Positions 5,771-62,684 of a stretch of DNA of 64,000 nucleotides are shown here, one piece after another. Source of the DNA: Paramacrobiotus metropolitanus (lineage: Eukaryota > Tardigrada > Eutardigrada > Parachela > Macrobiotidae); assembly GCF_019649055.1 (NCBI RefSeq), contig NW_026570248.1, positions 496,001 through 560,000 on the forward strand, written 5' to 3'. The notes beneath the pieces were generated by a model, which saw nothing but the letters and a program-made list of their open reading frames with translations, ran no database searches and had not been told where the DNA came from. How positions within the stretch are numbered: position 1 is the first letter of the stretch; the number at the start of each line of letters is the position of its first letter. The position numbers were made by a program, and so were the translations under genes.

Positions 5771-5788
5771 TGTCGCGCCTGAAACAAA
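5771..5788 (-). promoter_or_regulatory. 3' splice site of a 5' UTR intron of the TRIM-NHL gene
   Basis: On the minus strand the sequence reads attttgtttcag then GCGCGACA then ATG, a pyrimidine-rich tract ending in AG at 5779, eight bases before the start codon. This implies at least one upstream non-coding exon and fixes the first ATG of the coding exon as the start. The upstream exon was not located. Confidence 0.6.
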
Positions 5789-26855: not shown

Positions 26856-27039
26856 TCAAAATGGTGGTGTCCCTTGAAACTGCACCATCGGATTCATCGA
26901 CGAGGAGGCAAAATAGTTGTCGAAAAGGCACGAGTAGTCATCGTTGGCCATGGGAATAAGTGAAGCAAATCCAATTAGGACTAATGCTAGAGTCTGCATT
27001 GGTAGCGCTTTCCGCACAGCATTCCACACGGGATGTTGC
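26856..27039 (-). CDS. SYNE: nesprin KASH exon (transmembrane and luminal tail)
   Basis: The last coding exon, 60 residues then TGA. It reads [19 protein letters not shown], a hydrophobic segment continuing [10 protein letters not shown], then [13 protein letters not shown], and ends [12 protein letters not shown]. This is a KASH domain: the LP.Q...L.LIG.A.L.PM..DDYSC core matches vertebrate nesprins. The luminal cysteine is 23 residues before the C-terminus, the same spacing as in human nesprins, where it bonds to SUN. The usual Pro-Pro-Pro-X terminus is Thr-Pro-Pro-Phe here. The 3' splice site cttttcag at 27,040 is strong and joins in phase to the preceding exon. Confidence 0.93.
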
Positions 27040-30000
27040 CTGAAAAGTTGTCAGTCAGCACATTTCAAATTTATCGCAAACCATACATAATTTTCGCGAG
27101 TCTTACGCTGGCTGAGCGGGTAAAATGGTGAGCTGGGATGTGGAGGAAGATGTTGTGGACATAACGGTCTCGGAATTATCGCCGTCGGTGGTCGTGCGTA
27201 TTACAATGGCCTGGTGTCTCTCGAAATATTCCACTTCTCTTGCTCGCATAATGTGTTCCACTACCGATCCCTAAAATATTAGCGACGATAAAATATTTGG
27301 TATCACAGGTTCCGCACTGGAAGTAATTTAGTTTGCGTAGATAAATAGCAAAACGGAGACAACTAACAATAGCTCATAACCCTTAAAAAACCGCATGATC
27401 TATTTTAACACGTACGCTATCGATGCCGGCATGGTCCGCAAGTTCGTCTCGAAGCATGAGGAGCGTTTCAACCACCTCTTCTTCCAACTTAGCGGCAAAT
27501 TCCGGAGTTGACCGAACCATAATTTGATACGTTGCATATTTTATGTACATGGCTCTCTCCAAGACAGCTGCGAAACGAATCTGTTGTTCTTCCTGGAGAA
27601 ATAAGAAATCGATAAATTAAAATAGCCAAAACACATGCGATCTCTGCATCCGATATAACACCGTTCTAGACAACCACCTACTTCTGACTGTTCGTTTGTC
27701 CTCAAATACGTCAACTGGTCAAGCAAGTCCATCTTGAATTCCATGCGTTCCTTCTGATAGTCCTCCAGTAGTTTACGCAGGTATTTTTCACGGCGCAAAA
27801 CTTTCCTGATGTATGTCAACAAATGCATGTATAAAGCATTCAGCTGCTTGTGCTCTTCTTCGAATAATCGCAGGTCGATGTCCGGTGCGACTACTAGAAT
27901 AGCTCTGAAAAGGTCATCCAGCCGTCCAAGTTCTCCGTTGGTGCGAATTAATCGATCCAATAGGTACTGCAATTATGTGGTAAATGAATAATCTACCGTA
28001 TGTGCAGTAGTTAAAATTTTGCAGTGCAATGGGTGTATAAATCGTAACAGACGGCTCTTACAGAGCAAAAATACTAGCACTTGATTGGCTGAAGCAGCTT
28101 ACCGCAAAACGTTCGCGTTCTGTTTCCAGCACGTCTGGATCGATGTACTGCACTTCCGGATTGACAACCATATTTTTCAAAGAGCGCAGCTTTCGGATAG
28201 CAATGTCGTAACGGTAACGATAGGCAATCAGGCAAGAATGTTCTTCATGTACGGTCGTTGTGGTTGTCGCCGTTCGTGTCGATGCTTTGTTCTCGGATGA
28301 TAGAACACTGATATTGCGCGTAGGTAGCACAGGCATTTCCAAGGGTCGGACAAACGTCCCGGTGGCGGTTTCGGATAGTCTAGGCATGGAAAATTCTTCT
28401 GTAACTTCTTCGCGCATTTCATAAGTGGATGTCACAATCACAGTTTCGGATTCTTCTTCGGGGTCAAAGGAAACTGTCCGCAGGGAATCAGTAGAGCTGA
28501 ACACGTTGGAGCGCTCTGACTGGACAGTCATCGTACTGATGGTTTCGAAATCATCGGTGGAAATCGACTGAATCGTTGTCGTTACAGTACTGGTAATTGT
28601 CTGTACATTTTCTTCTTCTTCGGCATACTGCATGGAGTCCGTTTCTTGAGCATCCTGCAGCCACTTTTCGATCGTACCGGCTTCGGTTTCCAGGTATTGC
28701 CGAAGCGCTTCGGAACTTAACCGCTCTTGCGGCACCGGTGACGGAATAACGTAGGATGCTCGGCTAGATCCTCGGGAGAGAATTCTTGGTGATAAGATTT
28801 CCGTGCTGCTGTTAACATCTGCCGCCAGCATGTCAGTTGATTCTTCCTCAGCAGCAAAAATGCTAGTGCGAATACTGATTCGACTGGATGATGACACCCG
28901 CGAAAGAGTGGTCCAACCAGAAAGGTTCATTGAACTCGTAGAATCCTCCAAACTTGGAAGATGTTCTAATGGGGCGTGCAGTGTTCCTGACTCGTCCACA
29001 AGAGTGACCTCAAAAGATGGCAACGGTTGCAACGGTGATCTCTCGACAAGAACACTTTCCGGAGCCACTGTAAAGGGAACGACGGTGCCGTCTTCCGGAA
29101 AAGTGATTTTTTCGGGCACCAATGCGGTTAATGATTCGAAAAAGGTGTCCTTCGGTCCAGTTCGATGGAGGGTCTTTTTCCAGTTGAAAGAAATAGGTGC
29201 AGAATGCAGGTATTCATCTTCTGGTACAAGGATTTCAGCAGTCGATTCTGTAGGCCATATAGTAGGATAACATATTGTATAGTCACGTGCTTAATAAAGT
29301 ACAAATGGCTCTACCTTGCAAGCTGTCCGGTATGTTAAGAACATTGTGACTGATTCGAAAAGGTTCTTCTTCATCAAGTATCGAAAGATTTATGGAAGCA
29401 TCTGAGGTGCGGTCGGCAATAATCTCAGTAACAGTTTCAAAAAAAGAATCTTTCGGGCCGTTGCGATGTATGATACCGAGAGAGTGACGCACCGACGATA
29501 CCGAAAGCAGTTTGTCTCCTAAAGACAGCAGAAAAATCAATAAAAATATATTGAAATCATTTTTTAGAAACACACCAAGTAACACCTGTGCGCCAATCTT
29601 GATGCACTCATAACACACATACATATCAGGAACAGTACTCACCTAATTTCTCGTGGTCAGTTACAATCAAAGTCGACAGGTTTTGGACAGGTTGCTCTCG
29701 CCGCCCAGAAATTCGCACGGGCAAAAATCGGCCGCCAGGATAGATGATCTCGAACGCATTTGAGATCCCTACAACACAATTCGATTTTAACACATCGGCA
29801 GCAAACAGTTTTGCCCATTGCCAGCAAACACATTGGCAGCAAACATCCCACAAAACAAATAACAAAAGAAGTTCACAAATCACAAGAAAAAAGGGAACAG
29901 AAAACCAAACCTGACTCACCTATTCTGCCAGAGAATTCAGAAGTTTCGCTGTCAAAAACAGTAATCCCTTTAACGTTTGTAGACTGACCGTCAGGAATAT

Positions 30001-33000
30001 GGGAGGAAGACAACGTAGCGACAGCACCAATATAATTTCCCGGTAAAACATCCTTGCTAATAAAAAATTCGACCGTCTCGTCTTTCGGAGTTACACGGTG
30101 CTCAATGCGCTCGTCGACGGGACGCGGCGGTGTAACTGTCGGTTCAGCTGGTGTCGTTGTGACATCGTGCACGCTGATCGGCGCCACCAGTTCCGGTGCA
30201 AACCTTTCACTACCGATCAGTTCCAGTTCTTCACGGACGGCACTGATGCCCGGCTGTGTGGGTGTGACATCTGCGGGGATGAGGACAGGAGTGAATTTCT
30301 GCTGATCAACCGACTCAATGTCGAAGGTATCGCGCACAGCCTGTCGTAGGTGCTCTTCTTCCACGACAACCGTCGTCGGTGTTACAGGCACGACCGGCAC
30401 GATCTTCTCCTCTTCGACCGTCTCGTCTTTCGGAGTTACACGGTGCTCAATGCGCTCGTCGACGGGACGCGGCGGTGTAACTGTCGGTTCAGCTGGTGTC
30501 GTTGTGACATCGTGCACGCTGATCGGCGCCACCAGTTCCGGTGCAAACCTTTCACTACCGATCAGTTCCAGTTCTTCACGGACGGCACTGATGCCCGGCT
30601 GTGTGGGTGTGACATCTGCGGGGATGAGGACAGGAGTGAATTTCTGCTGATCAACCGACTCAATGTCGAAGGTATCGCGCACAGCCTGTCGTAGGTGCTC
30701 TTCTTCCACGACAACCGTCGTCGGTGTTACAGGCACGACCGGCACGATCTTCTCCTCTTCGACCGTCTCGTCTTTCGGAGTTACACGGTGCTCAATGCGC
30801 TCGTCGACGGGACGCGGCGGTGTAACTGTCGGTTCAGCTGGTGTCGTTGTGACATCGTGCACGCTGATCGGCGCCACCAGTTCCGGTGCAAACCTTTCAC
30901 TACCGATCAGTTCCAGTTCTTCACGGACGGCACTGATGCCCGGCTGTGTGGGTGTGACATCTGCGGGGATGAGGACAGGAGTGAATTTCTGCTGATCAAC
31001 CGACTCAATGTCGAAGGTATCGCGCACAGCCTGTCGTAGGTGCTCTTCTTCCACGACAACCGTCGTCGGTGTTACAGGCACGACCGGCACGATCTTCTCC
31101 TCTTCGACCGTCTCGTCTTTCGGAGTTACACGGTGCTCAATGCGCTCGTCGACGGGACGCGGCGGTGTAACTGTCGGTTCAGCTGGTGTCGTTGTGACAT
31201 CGTGCACGCTGATCGGCGCCACCAGTTCCGGTGCAAACCTTTCACTACCGATCAGTTCCAGTTCTTCACGGACGGCACTGATGCCCGGCTGTGTGGGTGT
31301 GACATCTGCGGGGATGAGGACAGGAGTGAATTTCTGCTGATCAACCGACTCAATGTCGAAGGTATCGCGCACAGCCTGTCGTAGGTGCTCTTCTTCCACG
31401 ACAACCGTCGTCGGTGTTACAGGCACGACCGGCACGATCTTCTCCTCTTCGACCGTCTCGTCTTTCGGAGTTACACGGTGCTCAATGCGCTCGTCGACGG
31501 GACGCGGCGGTGTAACTGTCGGTTCAGCTGGTGTCGTTGTGACATCGTGCACGCTGATCGGCGCCACCAGTTCCGGTGCAAACCTTTCACTACCGATCAG
31601 TTCCAGTTCTTCACGGACGGCACTGATGCCCGGCTGTGTGGGTGTGACATCTGCGGGGATGAGGACAGGAGTGAATTTCTGCTGATCAACCGACTCAATG
31701 TCGAAGGTATCGCGCACAGCCTGTCGTAGGTGCTCTTCTTCCACGACAACCGTCGTCGGTGTTACAGGCACGACCGGCACGATCTTCTCCTCTTCGACCG
31801 TCTCGTCTTTCGGAGTTACACGGTGCTCAATGCGCTCGTCGACGGGACGCGGCGGTGTAACTGTCGGTTCAGCTGGTGTCGTTGTGACATCGTGCACGCT
31901 GATCGGCGCCACCAGTTCCGGTGCAAACCTTTCACTACCGATCAGTTCCAGTTCTTCACGGACGGCACTGATGCCCGGCTGTGTGGGTGTGACATCTGCG
32001 GGATGAGGACAGGAGTGAATTTCTGCTGATCAACCGACTCAATGTCGAAGGTATCGCGCACAGCCTGTCGTAGGTGCTCTTCTTCCACGACAACCGTCGT
32101 CGGTGTTACAGGCACGACCGGCACGATCTTCTCCTCTTCGACCGTCTCGTCTTTCGGAGTTACACGGTGCTCAATGCGCTCGTCGACGGGACGCGGCGGT
32201 GTAACTGTCGGTTCAGCTGGTGTCGTTGTGACATCGTGCACGCTGATCGGCGCCACCAGTTCCGGTGCAAACCTTTCACTACCGATCAGTTCCAGTTCTT
32301 CACGGACGGCACTGATGCCCGGCTGTGTGGGTGTGACATCTGCGGGGATGAGGACAGGAGTGAATTTCTGCTGATCAACCGACTCAATGTCGAAGGTATC
32401 GCGTAGGTGCGACGTCACAGGCTGACCGTCGTAGGTGCTCTTCACGGACAACCGGTTCAGCACCACGTTCCGGTGCAAACCTTTCACTACCGATCAGTTC
32501 CAGTTCTTCACGGACGGCACTGATGCCCGGCTGTGTGGGTGTGACATCTGCGGGATGAGGACAGGAGTGAATTTCTGCTGATCAACCGACTCAATGTCGA
32601 AGGTATCGCGCACAGCCTGTCGTAGGTGCTCTTCTTCCACGACAACCGTCGTCGGTGTTACAGGCACGACCGGCACGATCTTCTCCTCTTCGACCGTCTC
32701 GTCTTTCGGAGTTACACGGTGCTCAATGCGCTCGTCGACGGGACGCGGCGGTGTAACTGTCGGTTCAGCTGGTGTCGTTGTGACATCGTGCACGCTGATC
32801 GGCGCCACCAGTTCCGGTGCAAACCTTTCACTACCGATCAGTTCCAGTTCTTCACGGACGGCACTGATGCCCGGCTGTGTGGGTGTGACATCTGCGGGGA
32901 TGAGGACAGGAGTGAATTTCTGCTGATCAACCGACTCAATGTCGAAGGTATCGCGCACAGCCTGTCGTAGGTGCTCTTCTTCCACGACAACCGTCGTCGG

Positions 33001-36000
33001 TGTTACAGGCACGACCGGCACGATCTTCTCCTCTTCGACCGTCTCGTCTTTCGGAGTTACACGGTGCTCAATGCGCTCGTCGACGGGACGCGGCGGTGTA
33101 ACTGTCGGTTCAGCTGGTGTCGTTGTGACATCGTGCACGCTGATCGGCGCCACCAGTTCCGGTGCAAACCTTTCACTACCGATCAGTTCCAGTTCTTCAC
33201 GGACGGCACTGATGCCCGGCTGTGTGGGTGTGACATCTGCGGGGATGAGGACAGGAGTGAATTTCTGCTGATCAACCGACTCAATGTCGAAGGTATCGCG
33301 CACAGCCTGTCGTAGGTGCTCTTCTTCCACGACAACCGTCGTCGGTGTTACAGGCACGACCGGCACGATCTTCTCCTCTTCGACCGTCTCGTCTTTCGGA
33401 GTTACACGGTGCTCAATGCGCTCGTCGACGGGACGCGGCGGTGTAACTGTCGGTTCAGCTGGTGTCGTTGTGACATCGTGCACGCTGATCGGCGCCACCA
33501 GTTCCGGTGCAAACCTTTCACTACCGATCAGTTCCAGTTCTTCACGGACGGCACTGATGCCCGGCTGTGTGGGTGTGACATCTGCGGGGATGAGGACAGG
33601 AGTGAATTTCTGCTGATCAACCGACTCAATGTCGAAGGTATCGCGCACAGCCTGTCGTAGGTGCTCTTCTTCCACGACAACCGTCGTCGGTGTTACAGGC
33701 ACGACCGGCACGATCTTCTCCTCTTCGACCGTCTCGTCTTTCGGAGTTACACGGTGCTCAATGCGCTCGTCGACGGGACGCGGCGGTGTAACTGTCGGTT
33801 CAGCTGGTGTCGTTGTGACATCGTGCACGCTGATCGGCGCCACCAGTTCCGGTGCAAACCTTTCACTACCGATCAGTTCCAGTTCTTCACGGACGGCACT
33901 GATGCCCGGCTGTGTGGGTGTGACATCTGCGGGGATGAGGACAGGAGTGAATTTCTGCTGATCAACCGACTCAATGTCGAAGGTATCGCGCACAGCCTGT
34001 CGTAGGTGCTCTTCTTCCACGACAACCGTCGTCGGTGTTACAGGCACGACCGGCACGATCTTCTCCTCTTCGACCGTCTCGTCTTTCGGAGTTACACGGT
34101 GCTCAATGCGCTCGTCGACGGGACGCGGCGGTGTAACTGTCGGTTCAGCTGGTGTCGTTGTGACATCGTGCACGCTGATCGGCGCCACCAGTTCCGGTGC
34201 AAACCTTTCACTACCGATCAGTTCCAGTTCTTCACGGACGGCACTGATGCCCGGCTGTGTGGTGTGACATCTGCGGGGATGAGGACAGGAGTGAATTTCT
34301 GCTGATCAACCGACTCAATGTCGAAGGTATCGCGCACAGCCTGTCGTAGGTGCTCTTCTTCCACGACAACCGTCGTCGGTGTTACAGGCACGACCGGCAC
34401 GATCTTCTCCTCTTCGACCGTCTCGTCTTTCGGAGTTACACGGTGCTCAATGCGCTCGTCGACGGGACGCGGCGGTGTAACTGTCGGTTTAGCTGGTGTC
34501 GTTGTGACATCGTGCACGCTGATCGGCGCCACCAGTTCCGGTGCAAACCTTTCACTACCGATCAGTTCCAGTTCTTCACGGACGGCACTGATGCCCGGCT
34601 GTGTGGGTGTGACATCTGCGGGATGAGGACAGGAGTGAATTTCTGCTGATCAACCGACTCAATGTCGAAGGTATCGCGCACAGCCTGTCGTAGGTGCTCT
34701 TCTTCCACGACAACCGTCGTCGGTGTTACAGGCACGACCGGCACGATCTTCTCCTCTTCGACCGTCTCGTCTTTCGGAGTTACACGGTGCTCAATGCGCT
34801 CGTCGACGGGACGCGGCGGTGTAACTGTCGGTTCAGCTGGTGTCGTTGTGACATCGTGCACGCTGATCGGCGCCACCAGTTCCGGTGCAAACCTTTCACT
34901 ACCGATCAGTTCCAGTTCTTCACGGACGGCACTGATGCCCGGCTGTGTGGGTGTGACATCTGCGGGGATGAGGACAGGAGTGAATTTCTGCTGATCAACC
35001 GACTCAATGTCGAAGGTATCGCGCACAGCCTGTCGTAGGTGCTCTTCTTCCACGACAACCGTCGTCGGTGTTACAGGCACGACCGGCACGATCTTCTCCT
35101 CTTCGACCGTCTCGTCTTTCGGAGTTACACGGTGCTCAATGCGCTCGTCGACGGGACGCGGCGGTGTAACTGTCGGTTCAGCTGGTGTCGTTGTGACATC
35201 GTGCACGCTGATCGGCGCCACCAGTTCCGGTGCAAACCTTTCACTACCGATCAGTTCCAGTTCTTCACGGACGGCACTGATGCCCGGCTGTGTGGGTGTG
35301 ACATCTGCGGGGATGAGGACAGGAGTGAATTTCTGCTGGTCAACCGACTCAATGTCGAAGGTATCGCGCACAGCCTGTCGTAGGTGCTCTTCTTCCACGA
35401 CAACCGTCGTCGGTGTCACAGGCACGACTGGCACGACTTTCTCCTCTTCGACCGTCTCGTCTTTCGGAGTAACACGGTGTTCAATGCGCTCGTCGACGGG
35501 ACGCGGTGTAACTGTCGGTTCAGCTGGTGTCGTTGTGACATCGTGCACGCTGATCGGCGCCACCAGTTCCGGTGCAAACCGTTCACTGCCGATCAGTTCC
35601 AGTTCTTCACGGACGGCACTGATGCCCGGCTGTGTTGGTGTGACTTCTGCTGGGATGAGGACAGGAGTGAATTTCTGCTGGTCAACCGACTCAATGTCGA
35701 AGGTATCGCGCACAGCCTGTCGTAGGTGCTCTTCTTCCACGACAACCGTCGTCGGTGTTACAGGCACGACCGGCACGATCTTCTCCTCTTCGACCGTCTC
35801 GTCTTTCGGAGTTACACGGTGCTCAATGCGCTCGTCGACGGGACGCGGCGGTGTAACTGTCGGTTCAGCTGGTGTCGTTGTGACATCGTGCACGCTGATC
35901 GGCGCCACCAGTTCCGGTGTAAACTCGTTCACTACCGATCAGTTCCAGTTCTTCACGGACGGCACTGATGCCCGGCTGTGTGGGTGTGACATCTGCGGGG

Positions 36001-51000: not shown

Positions 51001-54000
51001 ATGCGCTCGTCGACGGGACGCGGCGGTGTAACTGTCGGTTCAGCTGGTGTCGTTGTGACATCGTGCACGCTGATCGGCGCCACCAGTTCCGGTGCAAACC
51101 TTTCACTACCGATCAGTTCCAGTTCTTCACGGACGGCACTGATGCCCGGCTGTGTGGGTGTGACATCTGCGGGGATGAGGACAGGAGTGAATTTCTGCTG
51201 ATCAACCGACTCAATGTCGAAGGTATCGCGCACAGCCTGTCGTAGGTGCTCTTCTTCCACGACAACCGTCGTCGGTGTTACAGGCACGACCGGCACGATC
51301 TTCTCCTCTTCGACCGTCTCGTCTTTCGGAGTTACACGGTGCTCAATGCGCTCGTCGACGGGACGCGGCGGTGTAACTGTCGGTTCAGCTGGTGTCGTTG
51401 TGACATCGTGCACGCTGATCGGCGCCACCAGTTCCGGTGCAAACCTTTCACTACCGATCAGTTCCAGTTCTTCACGGACGGCACTGATGCCCGGCTGTGT
51501 GGGTGTGACATCTGCGGGGATGAGGACAGGAGTGAATTTCTGCTGATCAACCGACTCAATGTCGAAGGTATCGCGCACAGCCTGTCGTAGGTGCTCTTCT
51601 TCCACGACAACCGTCGTCGGTGTTACAGGCACGACCGGCACGATCTTCTCCTCTTCGACCGTCTCGTCTTTCGGAGTTACACGGTGCTCAATGCGCTCGT
51701 CGACGGGACGCGGCGGTGTAACTGTCGGTTCAGCTGGTGTCGTTGTGACATCGTGCACGCTGATCGGCGCCACCAGTTCCGGTGCAAACCTTTCACTACC
51801 GATCAGTTCCAGTTCTTCACGGACGGCACTGATGCCCGGCTGTGTGGGTGTGACATCTGCGGGATGAGGACAGGAGTGAATTTCTGCTGATCAACCGACT
51901 CAATGTCGAAGGTATCGCGCACAGCCTGTCGTAGGTGCTCTTCTTCCACGACAACCGTCGTCGGTGTTACAGGCACGACCGGCACGATCTTCTCCTCTTC
52001 GACCGTCTCGTCTTTCGGAGTTACACGGTGCTCAATGCGCTCGTCGACGGGACGCGGCGGTGTAACTGTCGGTTCAGCTGGTGTCGTTGTGACATCGTGC
52101 ACGCTGATCGGCGCCACCAGTTCCGGTGCAAACCTTTCACTACCGATCAGTTCCAGTTCTTCACGGACGGCACTGATGCCCGGCTGTGTGGGTGTGACAT
52201 CTGCGGGGATGAGGACAGGAGTGAATTTCTGCTGATCAACCGACTCAATGTCGAAGGTATCGCGCACAGCCTGTCGTAGGTGCTCTTCTTCCACGACAAC
52301 CGTCGTCGGTGTTACAGGCACGACCGGCACGATCTTCTCCTCTTCGACCGTCTCGTCTTTCGGAGTTACACGGTGCTCAATGCGCTCGTCGACGGGACGC
52401 GGCGGTGTAACTGTCGGTTCAGCTGGTGTCGTTGTGACATCGTGCACGCTGATCGGCGCCACCAGTTCCGGTGCAAACCTTTCACTACCGATCAGTTCCA
52501 GTTCTTCACGGACGGCACTGATGCCCGGCTGTGTGGGTGTGACATCTGCGGGGATGAGGACAGGAGTGAATTTCTGCTGATCAACCGACTCAATGTCGAA
52601 GGTATCGCGCACAGCCTGTCGTAGGTGCTCTTCTTCCACGACAACCGTCGTCGGTGTTACAGGCACGACCGGCACGATCTTCTCCTCTTCGACCGTCTCG
52701 TCTTTCGGAGTTACACGGTGCTCAATGCGCTCGTCGACGGGACGCGGCGGTGTAACTGTCGGTTCAGCTGGTGTCGTTGTGACATCGTGCACGCTGATCG
52801 GCGCCACCAGTTCCGGTGCAAACCTTTCACTACCGATCAGTTCCAGTTCTTCACGGACGGCACTGATGCCCGGCTGTGTGGGTGTGACATCTGCGGGATG
52901 AGGACAGGAGTGAATTTCTGCTGATCAACCGACTCAATGTCGAAGGTATCGCGCACAGCCTGTCGTAGGTGCTCTTCTTCCACGACAACCGTCGTCGGTG
53001 TTACAGGCACGACCGGCACGATCTTCTCCTCTTCGACCGTCTCGTCTTTCGGAGTTACACGGTGCTCAATGCGCTCGTCGACGGGACGCGGCGGTGTAAC
53101 TGTCGGTTCAGCTGGTGTCGTTGTGACATCGTGCACGCTGATCGGCGCCACCAGTTCCGGTGCAAACCTTTCACTACCGATCAGTTCCAGTTCTTCACGG
53201 ACGGCACTGATGCCCGGCTGTGTGGGTGTGACATCTGCGGGATGAGGACAGGAGTGAATTTCTGCTGGTCAACCGACTCAATGTCGAAGGTATCGCGCAC
53301 AGCCTGTCGTAGGTGCTCTTCTTCCACGACAACCGTCGTCGGTGTCACAGGCACGACTGGCACGACTTTCTCGTCTTCGACCGTCTCGTCTTTCGGATTC
53401 ACACGGTGTTCAATGCGCTCGTCGACGGGACGCGGTGTAACTGTCGGTTCAGCTGGTGTCGTTGTGACATCGTGCACGCTGATCGGCGCCACCAGTTCCG
53501 GTGCAAACCTTTCACTACCGATCAGTTCCAGTTCTTCACGGACGGCACTGATGCCCGGCTGTGTGGGTGTGACATCTGCGGGGATGAGGACAGGAGTCAA
53601 TTTCTGCTGATCAACCGACTCAATGTCGAAGGTATCGCGCACAGCCTGTCGTAGGTGCTCTTCTTCCACGACAACCGTCGTCGGTGTTACAGGCACGACC
53701 GGCACGATCTTCTCCTCTTCGACCGTCTCGTCTTTCGGAGTAACACGGTGTTCAATGCGCTCGTCGACGGGACGCGGTGTAACTGTCGGTTCAGCTGGTG
53801 TCGTTGTGACATCGTGCACGCTGATCGGCGCCACCAGTTCCGGTGCAAACCGTTCACTGCCGATCAGTTCCAGTTCTTCACGGACGGCACTGATGCCCGG
53901 CTGTGTTGGTGTGACTTCTGCTGGGATGAGGACAGGAGTGAATTTCTGCTGGTCAACCGACTCAATGTCGAAGGTATCGCGCACAGCCTGTCGTAGGTGC

Positions 54001-57000
54001 TCTTCTTCCACGACAACCGTCGTCGGTGTCACAGGCACGACTGGCACGACTCTTCGACCGTCTCGTCTTTCGGAGTAACACGGTGTTCAATGCGCTCGTC
54101 GACGGGACGCGGTGTAACTGTCGGTTCAGCTGGTGTCGTTGTGACATCGTGCACGCTGATCGGCGCCACCAGTTCCGGTGCAAACCGTTCACTGCCGATC
54201 AGTTCCAGTTCTTCACGGACGGCACTGATGCCCGGCTGTGTTGGTGTGACTTCTGCTGGGATGAGGACAGGAGTGAATTTCTGCTGGTCAACCGACTCAA
54301 TGTCGAAGGTATCGCGCACAGCCTGTCGTAGGTGCTCTTCTTCCACGACAACCGTCGTCGGTGTCACAGGCACGACTGGCACGACTTTCTCCTCTTCGAC
54401 CGTCTCGTCTTTCGGAGTAACACGGTGTTCAATGCGCTCGTCGACGGGACGCGGTGTAACTGTCGGTTCAGCTGGTGTCGTTGTGACATCGTGCACGCTG
54501 ATCGGCGCCACCAGTTCCGGTGCAAACCGTTCACTGCCGATCAGTTCCAGTTCTTCACGGACGGCACTGATGCCCGGCTGTGTTGGTGTGACTTCTGCTG
54601 GAATGAGGACAGGAGTGAATTTCTGCTGGTCAACTGATTGAACGTCGACGGCTTCGGCCGTAGTCTGTCTATGTACTTCTACAGCACTTTTGCTGCCTTG
54701 GTTTTAATGTCTTCAGCTAAGATTAGCGTGGTTGTTATTCGCCGTTGTTTCGGTGTTTCAATATTAAACTTATGATGCTCAGCAGTATTGCTTCTGCTTT
54801 TGATGTCGTTAAACGGAAAATTTCAGATGCGGCACTTTTTTCCCCGGGTTTCTCTTTTGTATAGATTTCGCTTGTCTTTTGGTGCAACTGTTGGGGCGAT
54901 TTTGTTGTTCCCGCGGGCTGCTCAGCGATTGTATAAGTTGAAGTAATTCTGGGGTATGCTTTTTGAAGCTCGTAGAAGTCGTCCTTTGTAACGCCTTTTG
55001 AAGCTTCTGGCGGCGGTTCAGATGGTATTCTCAGTGCCTGCAGTTTTCTGTTCCGGGAGCTTTCAACGTGAAAACGCTCCAATTTCGCTTTCCTTACACG
55101 CTGATCGATAGATATGGTATGGTGAAAATTCTGGGTCACGGTGTTCTGTGATTCTTCGCCGCTTCCGATTGAATGGTACGGTTCGCGAGCCCTTGTTTCT
55201 TTCGTTGCAGAGCTGAGCTTTTGGTATCTAGTTTCTCTTTTAACGGTCAGTGATTCGCTGATTTCGGTTTTTTCTGATCGGTAAGGTTTTACTTTTTCAG
55301 ATGACTGTCCGTGTGTTAATTGCGATATTTCCGTGTTCGAATTAAACATTTTGGTTTCCGCTGTATCGAAATGGATATCTCTTGGGGATGATCGGTGCCG
55401 CAAGATATCAAGGATAGCGGATACTTGACTTTTGACGTCCGAGTTTATCGTCTCTTCTGTCCTTATTGGTGCTTGTTGGGATGTGCTTCTGGCTGCTCTC
55501 GAACTTCCTTGTCCATGTTCGTCTTCCCGAATTACTGGAATAGAGATTACTGTTGAGAATTGAGGTTCTGTGATTTCTACTTTTTCTCTAGCGCGCGATC
55601 TTGTTTCGGGCATTGAGGATATTTCCACGGTTCGAAATGCTTCGTAGTTGGCTGCATCAATTCTGCGAGCCCTTCTCCACGGATTTTCTTCCGCATAAAA
55701 TCGGGAATTCGAGGACGCAGTGGTGACCGATTTGGTCTCGAACAAGCTGGTGATTGATCTAACAGAGCTTTTTGCTCCTATGCTGGTCAATACAGGTACA
55801 GTTTCTGGCTGCTTTTCCATTTTGTCCGGTGAACTTCTTGGCGTTTCGAAACTGGCGCTCAGGTTGCGCATTGAATGCAAAAGTTTACTGAAATACAAAC
55901 TCGCGTTAGGTTTTCAACTGTAATTATACTAGTACGTACTTTCTTCCTTATTGGGCATTCAAGTATTACGTAACGCAAGAGGGGTAGGGGGTGATTAAAT
56001 TTTTGGCTTTCCGTTACGCCTTGTTAAATGGGGTACGGCCTACGGGGTCAAAAAAGTTTTGTTAAGTGCGGGCCAACACTCCATAAAAAATTGAACACAT
56101 TAATATATTATAATTGAATTTTTATAGAGGAATGGTCGGGATTCACATTACGTATTCAGCTGGGGTTAAAAACTTTGTTATACTGGTGTTGCAAGGGGTG
56201 GGGGACGGTCAAAAATCATGAAAAATTGCGTTGGGTAATACTTGAATTGCGCCATAAAATGCAGTACGAGCATAGGTACGACTACTCTACTTCTTGTACT
56301 TTCTCGTACGTAAGGTACGAAATACGTATTGTACTACTTTAAACTTTACAGAATATTTTTTTCGAGACAATAAAAATTATTACTTAATATTATAAACTTT
56401 TACGATGCTATAACCTGTAGAATTATAAAATTACTGACACCCATTATTTTGTAGTTGTTGTTTTACACACAAACATTTGTACTGATACGGATCATATAAT
56501 ACAGTATTCTGTACTGATACGTAAATTTACAGCTTGTTATTTCGATACACAGAAGCAGCTGCGATCTATGAATGCTAGTCCCTTAATTACTTACTGTACT
56601 ACTGCAGCACCAGTGTAAATTAGTTAGAGAAAGTCTGCGTTGCACGATCGAAAATCTGCGTTGCATACGAAAAAGAAAAAAATGTTATGTTAGTTCCACT
56701 TACTCGTAGCGTTGAATTAACGTAGCTAATTTTCTCTCTTCTTCTGGTTTTGTCTCGGCAAGGATGCTCCCAGAATCCCTCGACATTGCAGTCAGGACGT
56801 CATCAATCTCCCTTTGATTTTGGTTCATCTGTTCCCGTAACTTCTGCAAAACATAACAACCTCTGAAAACTAATGGTGTGTGCCGGCCTTTAATTTATTA
56901 AATTCTGAACATGACAATGCGTATCATGATGGTTGCGATGACAGTAGAGCGCTAAATAACTACCTGGATTAGGAGAAGCATAGTGTGTTTGTCCTGGAAG

Positions 57001-60000
57001 CTTTTGGATGCAAATTGATCTTCGGAAAGCACTTGCTTTTCCAGTTCGTTTAGCGAAGACTGAAAGGACGCCACCCTGGCAAAAACCATTACTTAAAAAT
57101 TTGAGTTAAGCAGGTGGATGACGACTCCTGCTTTTAATAAATACGCAAAAGTGTAAGAAATACTAGTTTCCAAAAAACCGCTACTGTATTATTTATAGAA
57201 ACACAGATAATTACAACGGGTACTGGTACGGTGGTACTCAAGCAATTTCTGTTCCTTAAACGGTAATAACTCGTGTTAACTATAGTAGGCTGTTTAAGCA
57301 TAATGCATTTTACAATATCAAGGGTGCCATTGCGCATATGTGCGCATAATAAGGTGGGATTTGCAGGAATAGTGAAAATTTACATGATTTCAGCATCGTA
57401 CGTACTTAACGGCATATTCGCGCCATGAATTGGCACTAAGCGGTCTTCGATGAACGCTGGACCCTGTAAATGTAGAAGCGTTTATATATAAATTCAGTAC
57501 GCAAATGCTGATTTTGAAGTTGCAAATGAAATAAACTGTTCGCCGATATATTTACTTGAATACTAAACCTGTATCAGGATTTTGGTTTAACATAGTAACA
57601 ATACAAAGTAAGATCTGTCCGTACCTTCCGCGATCCGAGCCTGTGCACTATGTGCATCCGGTTGACCGTATGCTACGTCAACAGTATGTTGCTTCTCCTG
57701 CATCAGAACCACTTTCTTGAACCATTCCAAGGCTTCGCAAATCTTCTCCCATCTCTGATCAACAAAAGATGCTTTCTGCAATAATTCCGTGTGCCACCAT
57801 TGCACGTCGTTGCCATCAACAAACTGCGATAAATAATCATTCAACGCTCTCGATAAATCCGTGTATTTCCCATGCACGCCCTGATGCACCACGTGCACCC
57901 GGTATTCCTGTTCCAAGCGTTCGCGCCATTTGCTCTGCTGCTGCGTTGTGTGTTGCATGGATTGCGTCTTCCACCGCGCTATCCTCGTCTCCCATTCTTT
58001 GACCATTTCCATCTTACGAAATACTAAAAGCTTGCATTTTTCTTCCAGCCAACGTTGATGCAGGTATTTCCATGTGGATGATACCGCGTCAATTAAATTG
58101 TGCGCTTTGAATTCCTCCGACAACTCTTCATTAAGATCCATGTCATATAATAAATCGCTCACTAATCGTAATTCCGTTTTGAGCTCCTAAACAGATTGAT
58201 TAATAGGTCGATCAATTCGGTTGTACAATACCACATAAAACGATGCTTACCTCGTATTTGGCAAGTTTGAATTCGAGATCAGTCCTTCGAAAGGATGGTA
58301 TCCGCATGGACGGTTGCAGCACAGCGTCATAAATAGAATTCTCAATCTTGTCAAACTGAACGCAAATTTCCCGCTCCCTCCCATCAAGTTTACTTCAATA
58401 CGAAAGCAAATTATGAATACCTCAGCAGAAACAGCTTGTCGATACGATATACCTTGCGTAAGTGCAAGCAAGTAAGGTAAGTATACTCCGTACAGTACGG
58501 TGCGCCGACTTACTCGAACAGTGTTCGGTGCCACTGATGCTTTTCCGCAATCAGTTTAACCCATACCGCATCCATTTCCTGGAAGTTTTCTTCAGTCAAC
58601 ATCACACAGCGACCTTCCGTAAACAATTCTTTGAGACGCATGTACGAAATAGCGCGGTTTCGCAGCTCGCGTTGGTATGTCTGGTATTCCTGACAAAATA
58701 TAAAGTCGTAAGTTGCAGCGATACACGTGTGACTTGTCTATTTGCGCTGTTCACAAAGCTTAGCGTTAATGACAAATAAGTATAAAATCTATGCTGTCTT
58801 TGTGTTGTTTTCACGTCGTCCAGAGAAACGGAAAATTAAAACGTGTACTTCTGCATTTCCCTACGCATGGATGACAACAAACATCAAACTACCGCTACGT
58901 AGTTAACGGTGCAAAATGACTCACTGGACTATTGTCTCCATTTGCTGCTATTTTGTTTCACTATTCTGCATTGCTTAAAAACCTTCAAACTTCTCAATTT
59001 TCAGAAGTCAACTAAAAAACGCTTAATAAAGAACTGATGTTCAGGAAGTTAACGACAGGAAATTGGGACCACTTGGCATCTGTCAAAATTTCTTACGTTG
59101 TCCGGTGCTTGCTTGCATCGAGCTCATAATTAGGTGTGACTCATAAGTACGTGTTATTATTCTATAATCTACGTTCAGCCAGTTACTACTTACTAAAAAA
59201 TGGAGGTTGAAAATGTTGAACCGATATTCTGATTTATTTCCCTTTTTGTAAGTTTTTATATGTCACAAAATACTGAGCAACAACGCATTTTTGAAACAAT
59301 TTGCATAAAGTGGGCGTGCATTGACCAATTAAGTGAATCATGGCTCATGAGTTACATGTCCGATTCCAATGTCCGAGGAGTGTGAACGCTTTGCCACACA
59401 TGATCAATCAAACACAGCCCGAGTCACGGACTGCGAATAATTGTGAATTGTAACAGTGCCATTTTGTTAGCACGTTGGTAGACCGTAGACGTACCTCATA
59501 ATAACTGGGCGTCGGATAAATCGGAATTTCTGAACAACGCAGTGAAACGATTGTATCCAAACACCATTCTTTTAGGCGCTCGAATTCAGCTTGTTCGTTG
59601 GCTTCGCTGGCTTGCTCTTCTTGCCGCCGTTTCTCTTTGGCCTGGGGATATCTTCTGATAAATTCCGAAACATAAATCATCACACTTCTTTCGTCGGGCC
59701 GTTCGACTTCAAGGTCTGCCGACAGCAACCAACCGTTTTGTTAAATGCATTTTATTCTGTGTTGTTTCGCGGTGCACTAGGGTACGGGTACGAACAAGCA
59801 GTAGCCAATTAGGCAATTACAGTACCGGAAACGTCAAGTAGACGCGGTATTCCAAGATGGTCCTCGGCCATTCGGAAAGCAGTTTCGAGACGAATAGCGG
59901 ACGGTGCATCTCTAAACTCGCATAAGTTTATTAAATTAGAATCAAGCAGTTTTACCAATGCAAGAAAGGCCATTCCGTTTTGCCAGCTTGTCGTAAGGTT

Positions 60001-62684
60001 TGTCACAGGAATTCCATAGCGCCTACATAGTAAAATTTAAATATCATGGTTTCTTTACGGAACAATTTTCTTTCTTCTGCATACTCTTCGATTTCTTTTT
60101 TACACCACCGCAGTATTGTTGTAGCGGCACCCAAATGAAAGAATCCCTTTTGAGCGGCACGTGAGCGCGGACTACGCGGTGTTCCGGCAGACTCGGTCGA
60201 AACAGCTGATCGCCGTCCGCTCGATGTCGGTGTCGCTTCGGCACTGACAAGCGACTCATGTATGACAGGTATATCGAAATTGATCTGCAAACAATGGAAA
60301 AACCAATCACAACTCGCTAAACGCAGTGTTCAGCAATAACAAATATCAATAATGTTCCGCGAAAACCCGGTGCCGGCGTGTTACGTATACCTGGAAGTGC
60401 AAGATAATCGACCAGATGAGACCCAATATCACAACATGGTTGCCGTCTACGACATCGCTCTCGTGGATGTTGACAAGCCGTACCTGCCGGTTAAAAAGCA
60501 AATATGTCAATACGAGACTGGCAATTTTGACTGAACAAGAGTGATGTGCTTAGGCGGTGAAATACCACATCTAAACAAATTTACTTACTTGTCTGTATCG
60601 CAAGTATGACAGCGCTTTCTCAACATTCACGAGATAGTGCGCGCGACTGTATCGTCTAGCCGGTTCGCACGGCTATAATTGAAAGCAAAATTCATCAAAA
60701 GCGAGTAATAATAGCCAGTTAGGTCTTAACGTCGTAAGACGGTATCACATGAGGAAAACCTTACCAAGTGGTCTCCAGAAAGTACTTCCAGCAGCGCTAG
60801 CAGTGACTTGCCATCTCGGATGTCCGAATACAAATCGTGGACAACTCGCCGACTTGGATGCTGCAGTTTAAATGAATAATAATTCCAATAAAATTTCAAC
60901 CCGAATTCTCGATTGACCTCCTGCTTGGACAAATTTTGTTTTTACGACTATTTTCGATAGTACAATCCGGATTCAAATGACGACGAACAGATTGTTATTA
61001 ATTAATAAATGATATTATAATATCTATGCACTGTGTAAGAGTGCCGATTACGAATGTACATATGGAAATGTAAATGTACGCAACATTTAACTCTGGTGCT
61101 AAAAGCACAAGTATAAGTCTGCGTTAACTAACCGGTTAATTACCGACAAAATATATTTCGTTTACTGAAAAATATACTTCGTTTACTGCGTGTTCATAAA
61201 TGCATTCTTCAAAGACATGTAGTAATATCGTGTCAGTGTTCCGAACTTACATGTGCCAAGTGGGAGTTGATCCAGTTTGTAAAGGTACGCTTCTGGACGC
61301 GTTCCTGCTCATCTGCAAGTATCCAGAATCTCATGTTTCAGCAGCACGCGTTAAAGGCTACCCGAACACCTATAATCCATTGCGATGCAAACTGCGATGA
61401 CCGGTGGCACAACTGCCAAGTATATCACTGAACAGTGTTGCATTCTTGCAGACGCGTAAATCCATGCAGTCACCAGACAGCGCGTGCTTGTGTACAAACA
61501 CCTGCATCTACCGGTTGGTGCTCTGCCCAAAAATGATCCGCGAAATTAACAGTAGCGATCGAAAAGCTATGAGCATAAACATTTATGTGCGCAAGTCTTT
61601 CCTTACAGCCCCGTTCAAGTTTTCTTCGGTAGCCGTACGACGATTACGAGCTTGTTAAGTGTACGGTATTAAACTTAAGTCAGCAAAAAATTACCGTCCC
61701 AGTTATTGCACCGTAACCGGTTATTATCAGTGTCGACAATTAAGATAATAACTGCACAATTTTACTGATTTTAGTGCTTAATCAATCGTCACGAGTCCAT
61801 TGTCTACATCTCTCACAACTTATTCAACGTGTTCATTTGCGGAACAATGCCGCTATTTATTTTGTAGCTGTTAAATAAACAAGCGCTTTTGCTTTGAGCA
61901 GCAACTACATATATGCGGTGCCAGGCGACAAAGAAATCCAAAATAAACGTTGACCATATGTTCTTTTTTGCTTTCTACTGACAAGTTATCAGCAATTCAC
62001 GGTTAAGGCGAAGTGAAGCCCAAAGTTATTATAAGTGAGCATATATTATAGTAAGCATAGTTTCTGGAATTTTACATGCACCTGCTCAGTTTCAGAACTG
62101 CTTAAGCCGAGGCTTACTGCTGATCAGAAAACCATCAAGTTTCACTAACTTAATCATGCACTCTTACGATATGTAAGTCTAATCAAACAAAAACTGTCTG
62201 ATTAAATTAACAAACGGAATAAACGTATATATAACTGATCGTAAGTACTGTCAATTTTGATATTAACTTGTACGAAATTATAAGTACGTATCGGTTATCC
62301 TGTACTAACCAAAATGTTAATAGGCTAGTGACTTAACAACTTAACATACGAGTGATATAAGGAAAATACAGCACGCGAAAGAAAAGTCAAAAGTTTGCTA
62401 TTCTGCAATGCACATGAGTAATGCAGGATAAAAAAGACTACTTTTTAGTGCACTCGTAGCGCTGATAAGTCATATACGAAAAATTCAGCATTTTTTGCGA
62501 ATAGGGCAGTAGACTTACTTTGCAAAGATCTTATATTGCTTTTAAAATCCTCCTCTCGATAAATGGGCTCATCCCCCCAATCTGTGGAGTGCTCCCCCAC
62601 GGAAGCACCTGAGTATGATTTCGAAAGAGAAGACGAAGCCCGACCGGAAGCCAAGGAATATTCGAGATCTTCATCCGGATCCAT
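26856..62684 (-). CDS. SYNE: giant nesprin (CH-CH, huge tandem-repeat spacer, KASH)
   Basis: Whole gene model, about 10,200 aa. Coding exons on the minus strand: 62,684-62,519; 61,312-61,251; 60,860-60,765; 60,672-60,589; 60,483-60,391; 60,284-60,085; 60,022-59,826; 59,715-59,495; 58,689-58,514; 58,392-58,251; 58,186-57,625; 57,463-57,406; 57,075-56,964; 56,843-56,704; 55,887-29,920; 29,768-29,643; 29,518-29,315; 29,247-28,103; 27,966-27,682; 27,592-27,416; 27,270-27,107; 27,039-26,856. Every junction is GT-AG and in phase. N-terminal actin-binding CH domains plus a C-terminal KASH tail define nesprins, outer-nuclear-membrane proteins that bind SUN proteins and couple nuclei to actin. Vertebrate giant nesprins fill the middle with about 70 spectrin repeats; here a PVTE-rich 115-aa tandem repeat fills it. 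C. elegans ANC-1 also has long near-identical central repeats. The donor at 27,415 is less certain than the rest. The array carries apparent frame breaks described separately. Confidence 0.9.
27107..27966 (-). CDS. SYNE: nesprin C-terminal helical exons before KASH
   Basis: Three in-phase exons (27,966-27,682; 27,592-27,416; 27,270-27,107). The first two are charged and helical ([54 protein letters not shown]) and resemble degenerate spectrin repeats. The third ends in a Ser/Thr-rich stretch ([17 protein letters not shown]) that leads into the KASH exon as a juxtamembrane linker. The donor after 27,416 is chosen as gtacgt; an alternative in-phase gttttt donor lies about 24 bases further on. 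Confidence 0.75.
28103..29768 (-). CDS. SYNE: nesprin exons between the tandem array and the helical C-terminus
   Basis: Three exons (29,768-29,643; 29,518-29,315; 29,247-28,103), all with good gtgagt, gtagag or gtaagc donors and matching phases. The sequence is acidic and Ser/Thr-rich. It contains its own short repeat: [16 protein letters not shown] in the second exon and [16 protein letters not shown] in the third. The third exon is mostly low-complexity (many VTSTY, TTTIQS and SSTDSL stretches) and turns helical near its end ([16 protein letters not shown]), leading into the spectrin-like C-terminus. No named domain recognised. Confidence 0.75.
29920..55887 (-). CDS. SYNE: giant ~26-kb nesprin exon carrying the tandem array
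   Basis: It opens after ttgtatttcag at 55,888, in phase with the preceding exon, and closes at GGCAGAATAG/gtgagt (29,920). The first part (55,887-54,818) is a roughly 360-aa Ser/Thr/Arg-rich, presumably disordered segment. It is followed by a short transition and then the repeat array (54,634-30,068). The last 49 codons (about [18 protein letters not shown]) are unique. Between 54,818 and 54,688 the frame changes twice, at a T4 run and an A4 run (minus strand); adding one base to each run restores a single open frame with protein-like sequence ([14 protein letters not shown]). No consensus splice donor lies in that stretch, so missing bases are more likely than an intron. Confidence 0.75.
32387..32490 (-). 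other. shortened, scrambled repeat unit
   Basis: The distance between successive unit anchors here is 207 bp, not 345 (32,387 to 32,594). About 80 bp (32,402-32,482) contain jumbled pieces of the unit (gtcgtaggtgctcttcacgg, accggttcagcaccacgttc) that do not align end to end with any other copy, and the frame is lost. It looks like a collapsed or poorly resolved junction within the array. Confidence 0.7.
35339..35690 (-). repeat. isolated variant-class (342-bp) repeat unit inside the array
   Basis: This unit carries the full set of variant markers: ctggtcaacc, cacgactggcacgactttc, gtaacacggtgttc, gacgcggtgtaac (one codon shorter, PP to P), aaaccgttcactgcc and gtgttggtgtgacttctgct. It encodes EEEKVVPV and PAEVTP in place of EEEKIVPV and PADVTP. 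Its neighbours on both sides are the standard class. The same markers are otherwise found only at 53.3-54.6 kb. Confidence 0.9.
41109..51773 (-). repeat. 31 consecutive uninterrupted, essentially identical units
   Basis: A continuous open frame of 3,554 codons. Sequence blocks sampled four units apart (1,380 bp) are identical base for base, including third codon positions, in every block compared. This is the most homogeneous part of the array. Confidence 0.9.
53241..54634 (-). repeat. variant-class repeat units at the N-terminal edge of the array
   Basis: Four units of 342-bp type occupy the edge next to the unique N-terminal part. The unit beginning near 53,281 is a mosaic: variant markers in its first half (ctggtcaacc, cacgactttc with an extra gtcttcgac change giving DEK) and standard markers afterwards. 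A 7-bp deletion at about 54,048 breaks the frame in one unit. The next unit outward (54,635-54,660) is a strongly diverged remnant. Confidence 0.85.
54688..55887 (-). CDS. SYNE: nesprin Ser/Thr/Arg-rich linker (N-terminal part of the giant exon)
   Basis: About 400 residues with no recognisable fold: [45 protein letters not shown]-like polar stretches, [19 protein letters not shown]. The last 45 residues resemble a weakly diverged repeat unit ([18 protein letters not shown], then [20 protein letters not shown] against the unit's [20 protein letters not shown]). The array therefore probably grew from an ancestral copy at this edge. The frame is recovered only if two single bases are missing, at runs 54,817-54,820 and 54,688-54,691. 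Confidence 0.6.
55888..56703 (-). other. nesprin intron
   Basis: Bounded by GAGTAAGTGG (donor at 56,703) and ttgtatttcag (acceptor at 55,888). The interior is AT-rich and non-coding; no element with clear termini seen. Confidence 0.7.
56704..58689 (-). CDS. SYNE: nesprin helical, spectrin-like exons
   Basis: Six in-phase exons (58,689-58,514; 58,392-58,251; 58,186-57,625; 57,463-57,406; 57,075-56,964; 56,843-56,704), about 395 aa. The sequence is charged, heptad-like and rich in W, L, E and K ([75 protein letters not shown]). That is typical of spectrin-type three-helix repeats, perhaps three to four. In vertebrate giant nesprins this region is followed by dozens more; here it passes straight into the Ser/Thr-rich linker and the tandem array. 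Confidence 0.8.
58690..59494 (-). other. nesprin intron
   Basis: Bounded by TATTATGAG/gtacgt and ttttgtcag. No further exon found, and the flanking exons join in phase 0. Confidence 0.65.
59495..62684 (-). CDS. SYNE: nesprin N-terminus: tandem calponin-homology actin-binding domain
   Basis: Eight exons. The ATG at 62,684 follows an in-frame TAG; the first 55 residues are acidic and Ser-rich. CH1 (about 62-170) reads [72 protein letters not shown] and [15 protein letters not shown] Ser/Pro-rich linker (about 170-215) precedes CH2 (about 215-330), with [52 protein letters not shown] and [34 protein letters not shown] and the PCE..RR at the CH1 core match nesprins better than spectrin, plectin or filamin. 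The exon 6 donor gtatgc (60,084) gives the CH2 length of spectrin-family domains; a tempting gtaaag at 60,058 is out of phase. Confidence 0.92.
61313..62518 (-). other. nesprin intron 1 (1.2 kb)
   Basis: Donor CAAA/gtaagt at 62,518 and acceptor acttgcag at 61,313, joining so that the split codon reads Asn before [10 protein letters not shown]. No exon or element recognised within. Confidence 0.75.

Follow-up and report, generated by a model that had tools for sequence, protein, structure and literature searches.

A predicted giant CH-KASH protein with a 115-residue tandem-repeat array at its centre in the tardigrade Paramacrobiotus metropolitanus

Gene model and terminal domains

Contig NW_026570248.1 (C28) of the 169,799,020-base genome of the tardigrade Paramacrobiotus metropolitanus (Macrobiotidae) carries a gene for a predicted giant protein of the nesprin/Msp300/ANC-1 group. 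The gene lies within the stretch analyzed here (positions 496001-560000; the whole 64,000 nucleotides are referred to as the window, and coordinates are those of the window unless a contig is named). It runs on the minus strand from an ATG at 62684 to a stop codon at 26856-26858 and corresponds to NCBI locus LOC129588062, whose protein of 855 amino acids (aa) (P0003) is annotated as "uncharacterized protein LOC129588062, partial". The ends of the gene encode a pair of calponin-homology (CH) domains and a KASH domain, and its centre is a giant exon dominated by a tandem repeat (Table 1).

Table 1. Features of the CH-KASH gene LOC129588062 in the window
Feature	Position	Strand	Basis or remark
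Exon 1, start ATG	62519..62684	-	Spliced model; paralogue on contig C4 36% identical over 66 columns
Exons 2-8, tandem CH domains, putative actin-binding	59495..61312	-	PF00307; PDB sequence matches
Exons 9-14, helical segment adjoining the CH domains, possibly spectrin-like	56704..58689	-	
Giant central exon, ~26 kb: ~380-aa lead-in, array, short tail	29920..55887	-	Splice sites; P0003
Array, 71 units plus a partial 72nd, of a 345-bp/115-aa P/V/T/E-rich repeat	30068..54648	-	
Units 1-4, edge variants lacking one CCG codon, closer to decayed copies elsewhere, probably older	53268..54628	-	
Post-array exons with two copies of an HRxGPKD motif	28103..29768	-	P0003; relatives P0001 (42%) and P0002 (37%)
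Helical exons and short linker preceding KASH	27107..27966	-	P0003; 45-46% identity to the C4 paralogue over the helices
KASH domain exon and stop codon	26856..27039	-	PF10541, 48.2 bits; alignment to nesprin-1 KASH peptides

GT-AG splice sites and reading frame gave a stop-free front model of 15 exons (the last one partial) that extends from the ATG to position 54741 and encodes 1,152 aa. Reading frame decided where exons 6 and 12 end and where exon 2 starts, with CH homology as a further guide for exon 6. Two stretches of the front model match the CH family (129.3 bits), and the pair matches the actin-binding regions of spectrin, plectin, and dystrophin. At the opposite end of the gene, the frame at 26859-27050 scores well above the KASH cut-off of 23 bits when the exon is taken alone, and the domain is also recovered in P0003 (41.6 bits), where it reaches the C terminus. 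The KASH tail aligns to the nesprin-1 KASH peptides of PDB entries 6r15 and 4dxr with an E-value of ~0.8. Furthermore, matches to SUN domains are present on three contigs of the genome.

The giant exon is bounded by an acceptor (TTTCAG) before 55887 and a donor (GTGAGT) from 29919. P0003 begins inside the partial last unit of the array and continues through the downstream exons to the KASH domain. Together, the continuous GT-AG front model and the exit of P0003 would join both the CH side and the KASH side to the array exon. Two other proteins, P0001 and P0002, match the exon that follows the array; P0002 scores 113 bits against this gene versus 54 bits against a second CH-KASH gene on contig C4; the best C4 hit of P0001 is not significant (E 0.73).

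Searches with the spectrin repeat family (PF00435) returned no match among the best candidates in C28:520-560 kb at E-values up to 0.001, none in a 796-aa front piece or in P0003 at E-values up to 1, and none in two joined array units or the lead-in exon. A structural model of exon 11 had no confident Foldseek match (best E 0.15). As judged from these domains, the gene belongs to the CH-KASH group without being a spectrin-rod nesprin. A sequence-only reading of the same DNA had described it as complete from CH-CH to KASH and secure as a LINC-complex nesprin. Comparison of the model with nesprins (KASH tail) and with actin-binding regions (CH pair) upheld both terminal domains and the group membership; a central spectrin rod was not found, and the assembled frame is broken, a feature absent from that reading.

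A probably coding repeat of 345 bp

Tandem Repeats Finder reports a period of 345 bp, with 6.8 copies at 30068-32403 and 64.4 copies at 32461-54648. Cutting at the unit's end marker yields 71 units and a partial 72nd, in agreement with the ~71 copies of a P/V/T/E-rich repeat first read from the letters; unit 65 is shortened to 207 bp. Letter-identical units make up 52 of the 71, and the array is far beyond chance. Valine (16.5%), glutamate (13.9%), proline (13.0%), and threonine (12.2%) account for 55.7% of the residues, lysine is scarce (2.6%), and the net charge is -13. The unit also has no C, M, N, W, or Y, as the sequence-only reading had claimed. One codon is absent from units 1-3 and 56, which form a variant whose other differences are mostly silent; unit 4 lacks the same codon and has some of the same changes.

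The pattern of differences among units supports a coding array because substitutions are biased towards silent ones. Silent changes account for 13 of the 20 distinct substitutions and for 10 of the 12 that occur in two or more units, against an expectation of 25.5% (264 of 1,035) for random single changes to the unit. The binomial probabilities (2e-4 and 5e-5, respectively) are a guide only, since changes are copied between units and the mutation bias is not known. The coding frame is the one open frame of the unit's six, while 1.4% of shuffled 345-mers are open in a given frame, and five units share a 3-bp indel that keeps the frame. None of four splice donor patterns tested (among them GTAAG, GTGAG, and GTATG) occurs in the array, in effect a test of one 345-bp unit with patterns that would also miss about half of the donors in the gene itself. 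In all likelihood, to judge from these sequence patterns, the array is coding.

We also searched for the unit, which the sequence-only reading had not recognized as a named domain, among known proteins. A 230-aa query run against 5.8 billion proteins returned 88 candidates, none at E-values up to 10, in a search that sees only proteins of ~126-402 aa. A 718-aa array query led to 1,094 scored candidates of ~395-1256 aa, and its sole match was the same gene. Because the search sees limited length ranges, longer array proteins of other species would escape it.

Decayed pieces of the unit lie on three small contigs (L005:4568-5236, L006:4131-5120, and L007:4812-4966). Frame changes or stops mark the relics on C214 and C322; the C368 relic, a fragment of 52 aa, is too short for a verdict. 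Other tandem repeats accompany the relics on C214 and C322. No other parts of the gene were found in ~10 kb around each relic, and the relics are satellite-like remnants left by the coding repeat. At the sites that separate edge and main variants, they side with the edge variant by 15 to 5 (5 neither), 28 to 5 (5 neither), and 4 to 1 (1 neither). For this reason, the main unit seems to be a derived form whose 52 identical copies arose recently, and edge units 1-4 are probably older than the main units. Polishing of the assembly could be an alternative source of the uniformity, with small differences hidden.

A paralogue with a diverged centre

We identified a second CH-KASH gene on contig C4 (~2.024-2.054 Mb). 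Its KASH domain (at 2,053,769) is the sole other KASH match at E-values up to 0.001, and its CH match lies ~28 kb upstream on the same strand. Identity between the two genes is 66% in the KASH domain, 28-73% in the CH regions (the low figure covers a hit that includes an intron), 32-35% in the helical exons, and 45-46% in the C-terminal helices. The centre of the paralogue has open frames of 811, 1222, 129, 1195, 349, 2120, 123, 251, and 361 aa (6,561 in total), read from stop to stop without splicing and hence partly intron. There were no spectrin matches in this centre and no Pfam families in the three of its nine pieces that were scanned. No tandem array was reported there either; the centre is diverged, with a motif that recurs at variable spacing (e.g., PRERPSAVAHRFNVPDRDI). 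It also has basic repeated segments such as KSKGIFGLFKSKKSK and blocks such as ERRTSLEFLP (C4:2030850-2051193), and seven copies of a 79-bp tandem repeat lie upstream of the gene (C4:2019033-2019590).

The recurrent motif may link the two centres, with mixed statistics. A pattern drawn up post hoc, after both genes had been read (H[RH]x[GNT]x[SPATK]D), occurs 16 times in C4 versus a mean of 0.05 and a maximum of 2 in 2000 shuffles. HRVTPKD occurs in the array unit, HRNGPKD and HRTGPKD in the post-array exons, and HRSSPRD in the exon preceding the array, the last noted by eye. A position matrix built from 28 C4 copies selects IEHRVTPKD in the unit, a score that 11 of 5000 shuffles reach, and picks the first post-array copy (6/1000 shuffles) and not the second (104/1000); P0001 (178/500) and P0002 (137/500) are unsupported by it. 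Hidden Markov models (HMMs) of 12 C4 repeats did not recognize the unit above 3,000 shuffled units (rank 214 of 2127 returned rows for the motif and 402 of 3004 for the whole repeat), nor did they recognize P0001-P0003 where these were returned. Another motif, EHLxExV, is enriched in C4 (11 versus a mean of 0.7) and unsupported in the unit, where it is placed elsewhere (469/5000). Finally, when phmmer compared the unit with the nine C4 pieces, the best domains reached E-values of 0.0008-0.002, with composition bias that was strong. These mixed results hint at, without demonstrating, a common ancestry of the unit and the C4 repeats. Both giant KASH proteins found seem to have a long non-spectrin centre, of which the array looks like the recent homogenized form.

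A proposed flexible tether between nucleus and actin

LOC129588062 probably, if with some reservation on our part, encodes a giant CH-KASH protein whose array forms a flexible tether between the nucleus and actin. In this protein, the CH pair would bind actin and the KASH peptide would reach across the nuclear envelope to a SUN protein, with the ~26-kb exon supplying a predicted acidic, mostly disordered repeat of ~8,200 residues between helical segments. An extended chain has a contour of 0.36 nm per residue, and its coil radius follows from scaling constants. Translated whole, the array would have ~8,245 residues (0.9 MDa), a contour of 2,968 nm, and, by the scaling law, a coil radius of ~44 nm. 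AlphaFold2, run on a single sequence without an alignment, gives three joined units a pLDDT of 44 and two short, weak helices per unit. The best reading is a flexible nucleus-actin tether with up to ~3 μm of contour. Such a negatively charged, entropic tether would form a coil with a radius of some tens of nanometres, could extend to ~3 μm before bearing load, and would bear little force until far extended, letting the nucleus shift by micrometres while still attached. The unit has six [ST]P sites, all of them T-P, versus a shuffle mean of 2.4 (24 of 2000 shuffles reach six). Together with the HRxxPKD motifs, these could be docking or phosphorylation sites that tune the tether.

Several observations weigh against a tether of this kind. 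Frame-breaking indels occur in 14 of the 71 units, and the frame of the lead-in (55913-54738) does not match that of the array's first open stretch (54703-54032). The NCBI model is only partial and starts inside the partial last unit, and we infer the joining of CH, array, and KASH in one mRNA from the gene model. The copy number depends on one assembly, and no homologue of the unit in another species appeared among the candidates scored. Furthermore, a pLDDT of 44 is weak evidence of disorder because no alignment was used, and the charge-hydropathy relation places the unit marginally on the folded side.

The frame breaks fall largely in one kind of site. Nine of the 14 broken units have lost one C from CCCC, the unit's longest homopolymer, and two have lost one C from CCC; the other three carry a 7-bp deletion, a 2-bp deletion, and a 1-bp insertion. 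Unit 65, among the nine, has further deletions and regains the frame at its end because its net change is -138. The slip in the lead-in may come from two single-base losses in short A-runs, and the longest unbroken array frame has 3,593 aa. Paramacrobiotus sp. TYO is presumably P. metropolitanus. Its assembly was made from nanopore R9.4 reads with Canu, nanopolish, and Pilon, according to the published assembly details (PMC8277472). Homopolymer error is likely in a nanopore assembly of a repeat where short reads cannot be placed, and nanopore error is likely the best explanation of the breaks, short of proof.

Alternative explanations

The same features of the assembly raise the question of whether the array's length or uniformity is partly an artefact, with a true copy number that differs or a variation that is greater. 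The sequencing chemistry and Pilon polishing, as given in the source's assembly details (PMC8277472), and the concentration of indels in the CCCC run and one CCC run would fit such an artefact, as would the difficulty that short reads should have in a 24.6-kb repeat. We regard it as unlikely, however, because the assembly kept the distinct edge units 1-4 and the older-type unit 56 apart. That the array is an untranslated satellite landed in the gene is very improbable. Decayed copies do occur on three other contigs, and in the two whose surrounding repeats were viewed they sit among other tandem repeats, but differences between units are biased to silent ones, an indel in five units keeps the frame, and the NCBI protein includes the end of the array. 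Stops or frame changes, moreover, are present in two of the decayed copies, and the third is too short to judge.

Other explanations accept a coding array and give it a different role. Sidearms of neurofilaments offer a comparison for a brush, and the array could be a multivalent docking or phospho-regulated brush, with HRxxPKD and six T-P sites per unit, instead of a spring. The excess of [ST]P sites and the abundance of the HRxGxxD-type motif in the C4 centre, the latter counted with a post hoc pattern, are consistent with this role, which we nonetheless consider somewhat unlikely: [ST]P sites are not enriched in the paralogue (107 versus 97, reached by 42/300 shuffles), the motif match in the unit is modest, and the 12-repeat profiles miss the unit. 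The array could also occur mainly in isoforms without CH or KASH and serve as a cytoplasmic or organelle scaffold. Msp300 has CH+KASH-, CH-KASH+, and other isoforms (PMC8616381), and the NCBI model of LOC129588062 is C-terminal only. In Caenorhabditis elegans, deletion of ANC-1 repeats causes an intermediate anchorage defect and the CH domains are dispensable (PMC8139857). Those findings make a scaffold role a live rival, if a rather unlikely one, since the GT-AG model leads from the CH side into the array exon and P0003 exits towards KASH.

Comparison with known systems

ANC-1 of C. elegans is also a giant that runs from CH-CH to KASH with near-identical central tandem repeats, and no spectrin repeats have been recognized in it (PMC8139857). 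The same source gives ANC-1 six repeats of 903 residues, predicted to be largely helical (PMC8139857), which bears out the longer unit attributed to ANC-1 by the sequence-only reading and sets it apart from the ~71 Pro-rich units of 115 residues in LOC129588062. Giant Msp300 and nesprin-1/-2 resemble the tardigrade protein in their CH-CH and KASH ends and in helical segments alongside, yet have >50 spectrin-like repeats in that account (PMC8139857), whereas LOC129588062 has no Pfam spectrin match. The C4 paralogue aligns with it in exon 1, the CH domains, the helical exons, and KASH, and likewise has a centre without spectrin matches, but this centre has diverged, its motif spacing varies, and no tandem array was reported in it. 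The PEVK segment of titin is defined by a Lys-rich PEVK composition. Like the array as predicted for LOC129588062, it is a long Pro/Glu/Val-rich disordered segment in an elastic giant; the tardigrade unit, in contrast, is lysine-poor and strongly acidic, the repeat is different, and no Ig domain was found in the pieces scanned.

Judged from listings of the open-licence PMC literature, no paper on a tardigrade nesprin was found, and that literature yielded nothing on a tardigrade giant tandem-repeat protein or on disorder in connection with the spectrin repeats of Msp300. What is new is the kind of centre that the protein has, and that the paralogue has one too, in a different form. The mechanics between nucleus and cytoskeleton are usually thought of in terms of a spectrin rod. 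The pairing of a natural CH-KASH protein whose flexible linker has a contour of ~3 μm, as predicted here, with a paralogue whose centre has no spectrin matches would offer a test of rod structure versus length and motifs. We tentatively put forward the possibility that tardigrades gave up the spectrin rod, so that both CH-KASH genes of this animal join nucleus and actin through a motif-bearing disordered chain, thousands of residues long. One of these chains would have been re-homogenized into a 71-copy entropic tether tuned by copy number, with a length changeable by unequal crossing-over; such a tether might be useful as cells shrink and swell in drying. The copy number of the tandem-repeat exon can be compared between strains, in animals that survive extreme changes in cell volume.

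Other genes in the window

Two further open frames lie in the window. A single frame of 711 aa at 3692-5827 on the minus strand matches RING, filamin, and NHL domains, and we take its product to be TRIM-NHL-like. On the plus strand, a 424-aa frame at 22539-23813 matches the xylose-isomerase-like TIM barrel family (PF01261, 165 bits).

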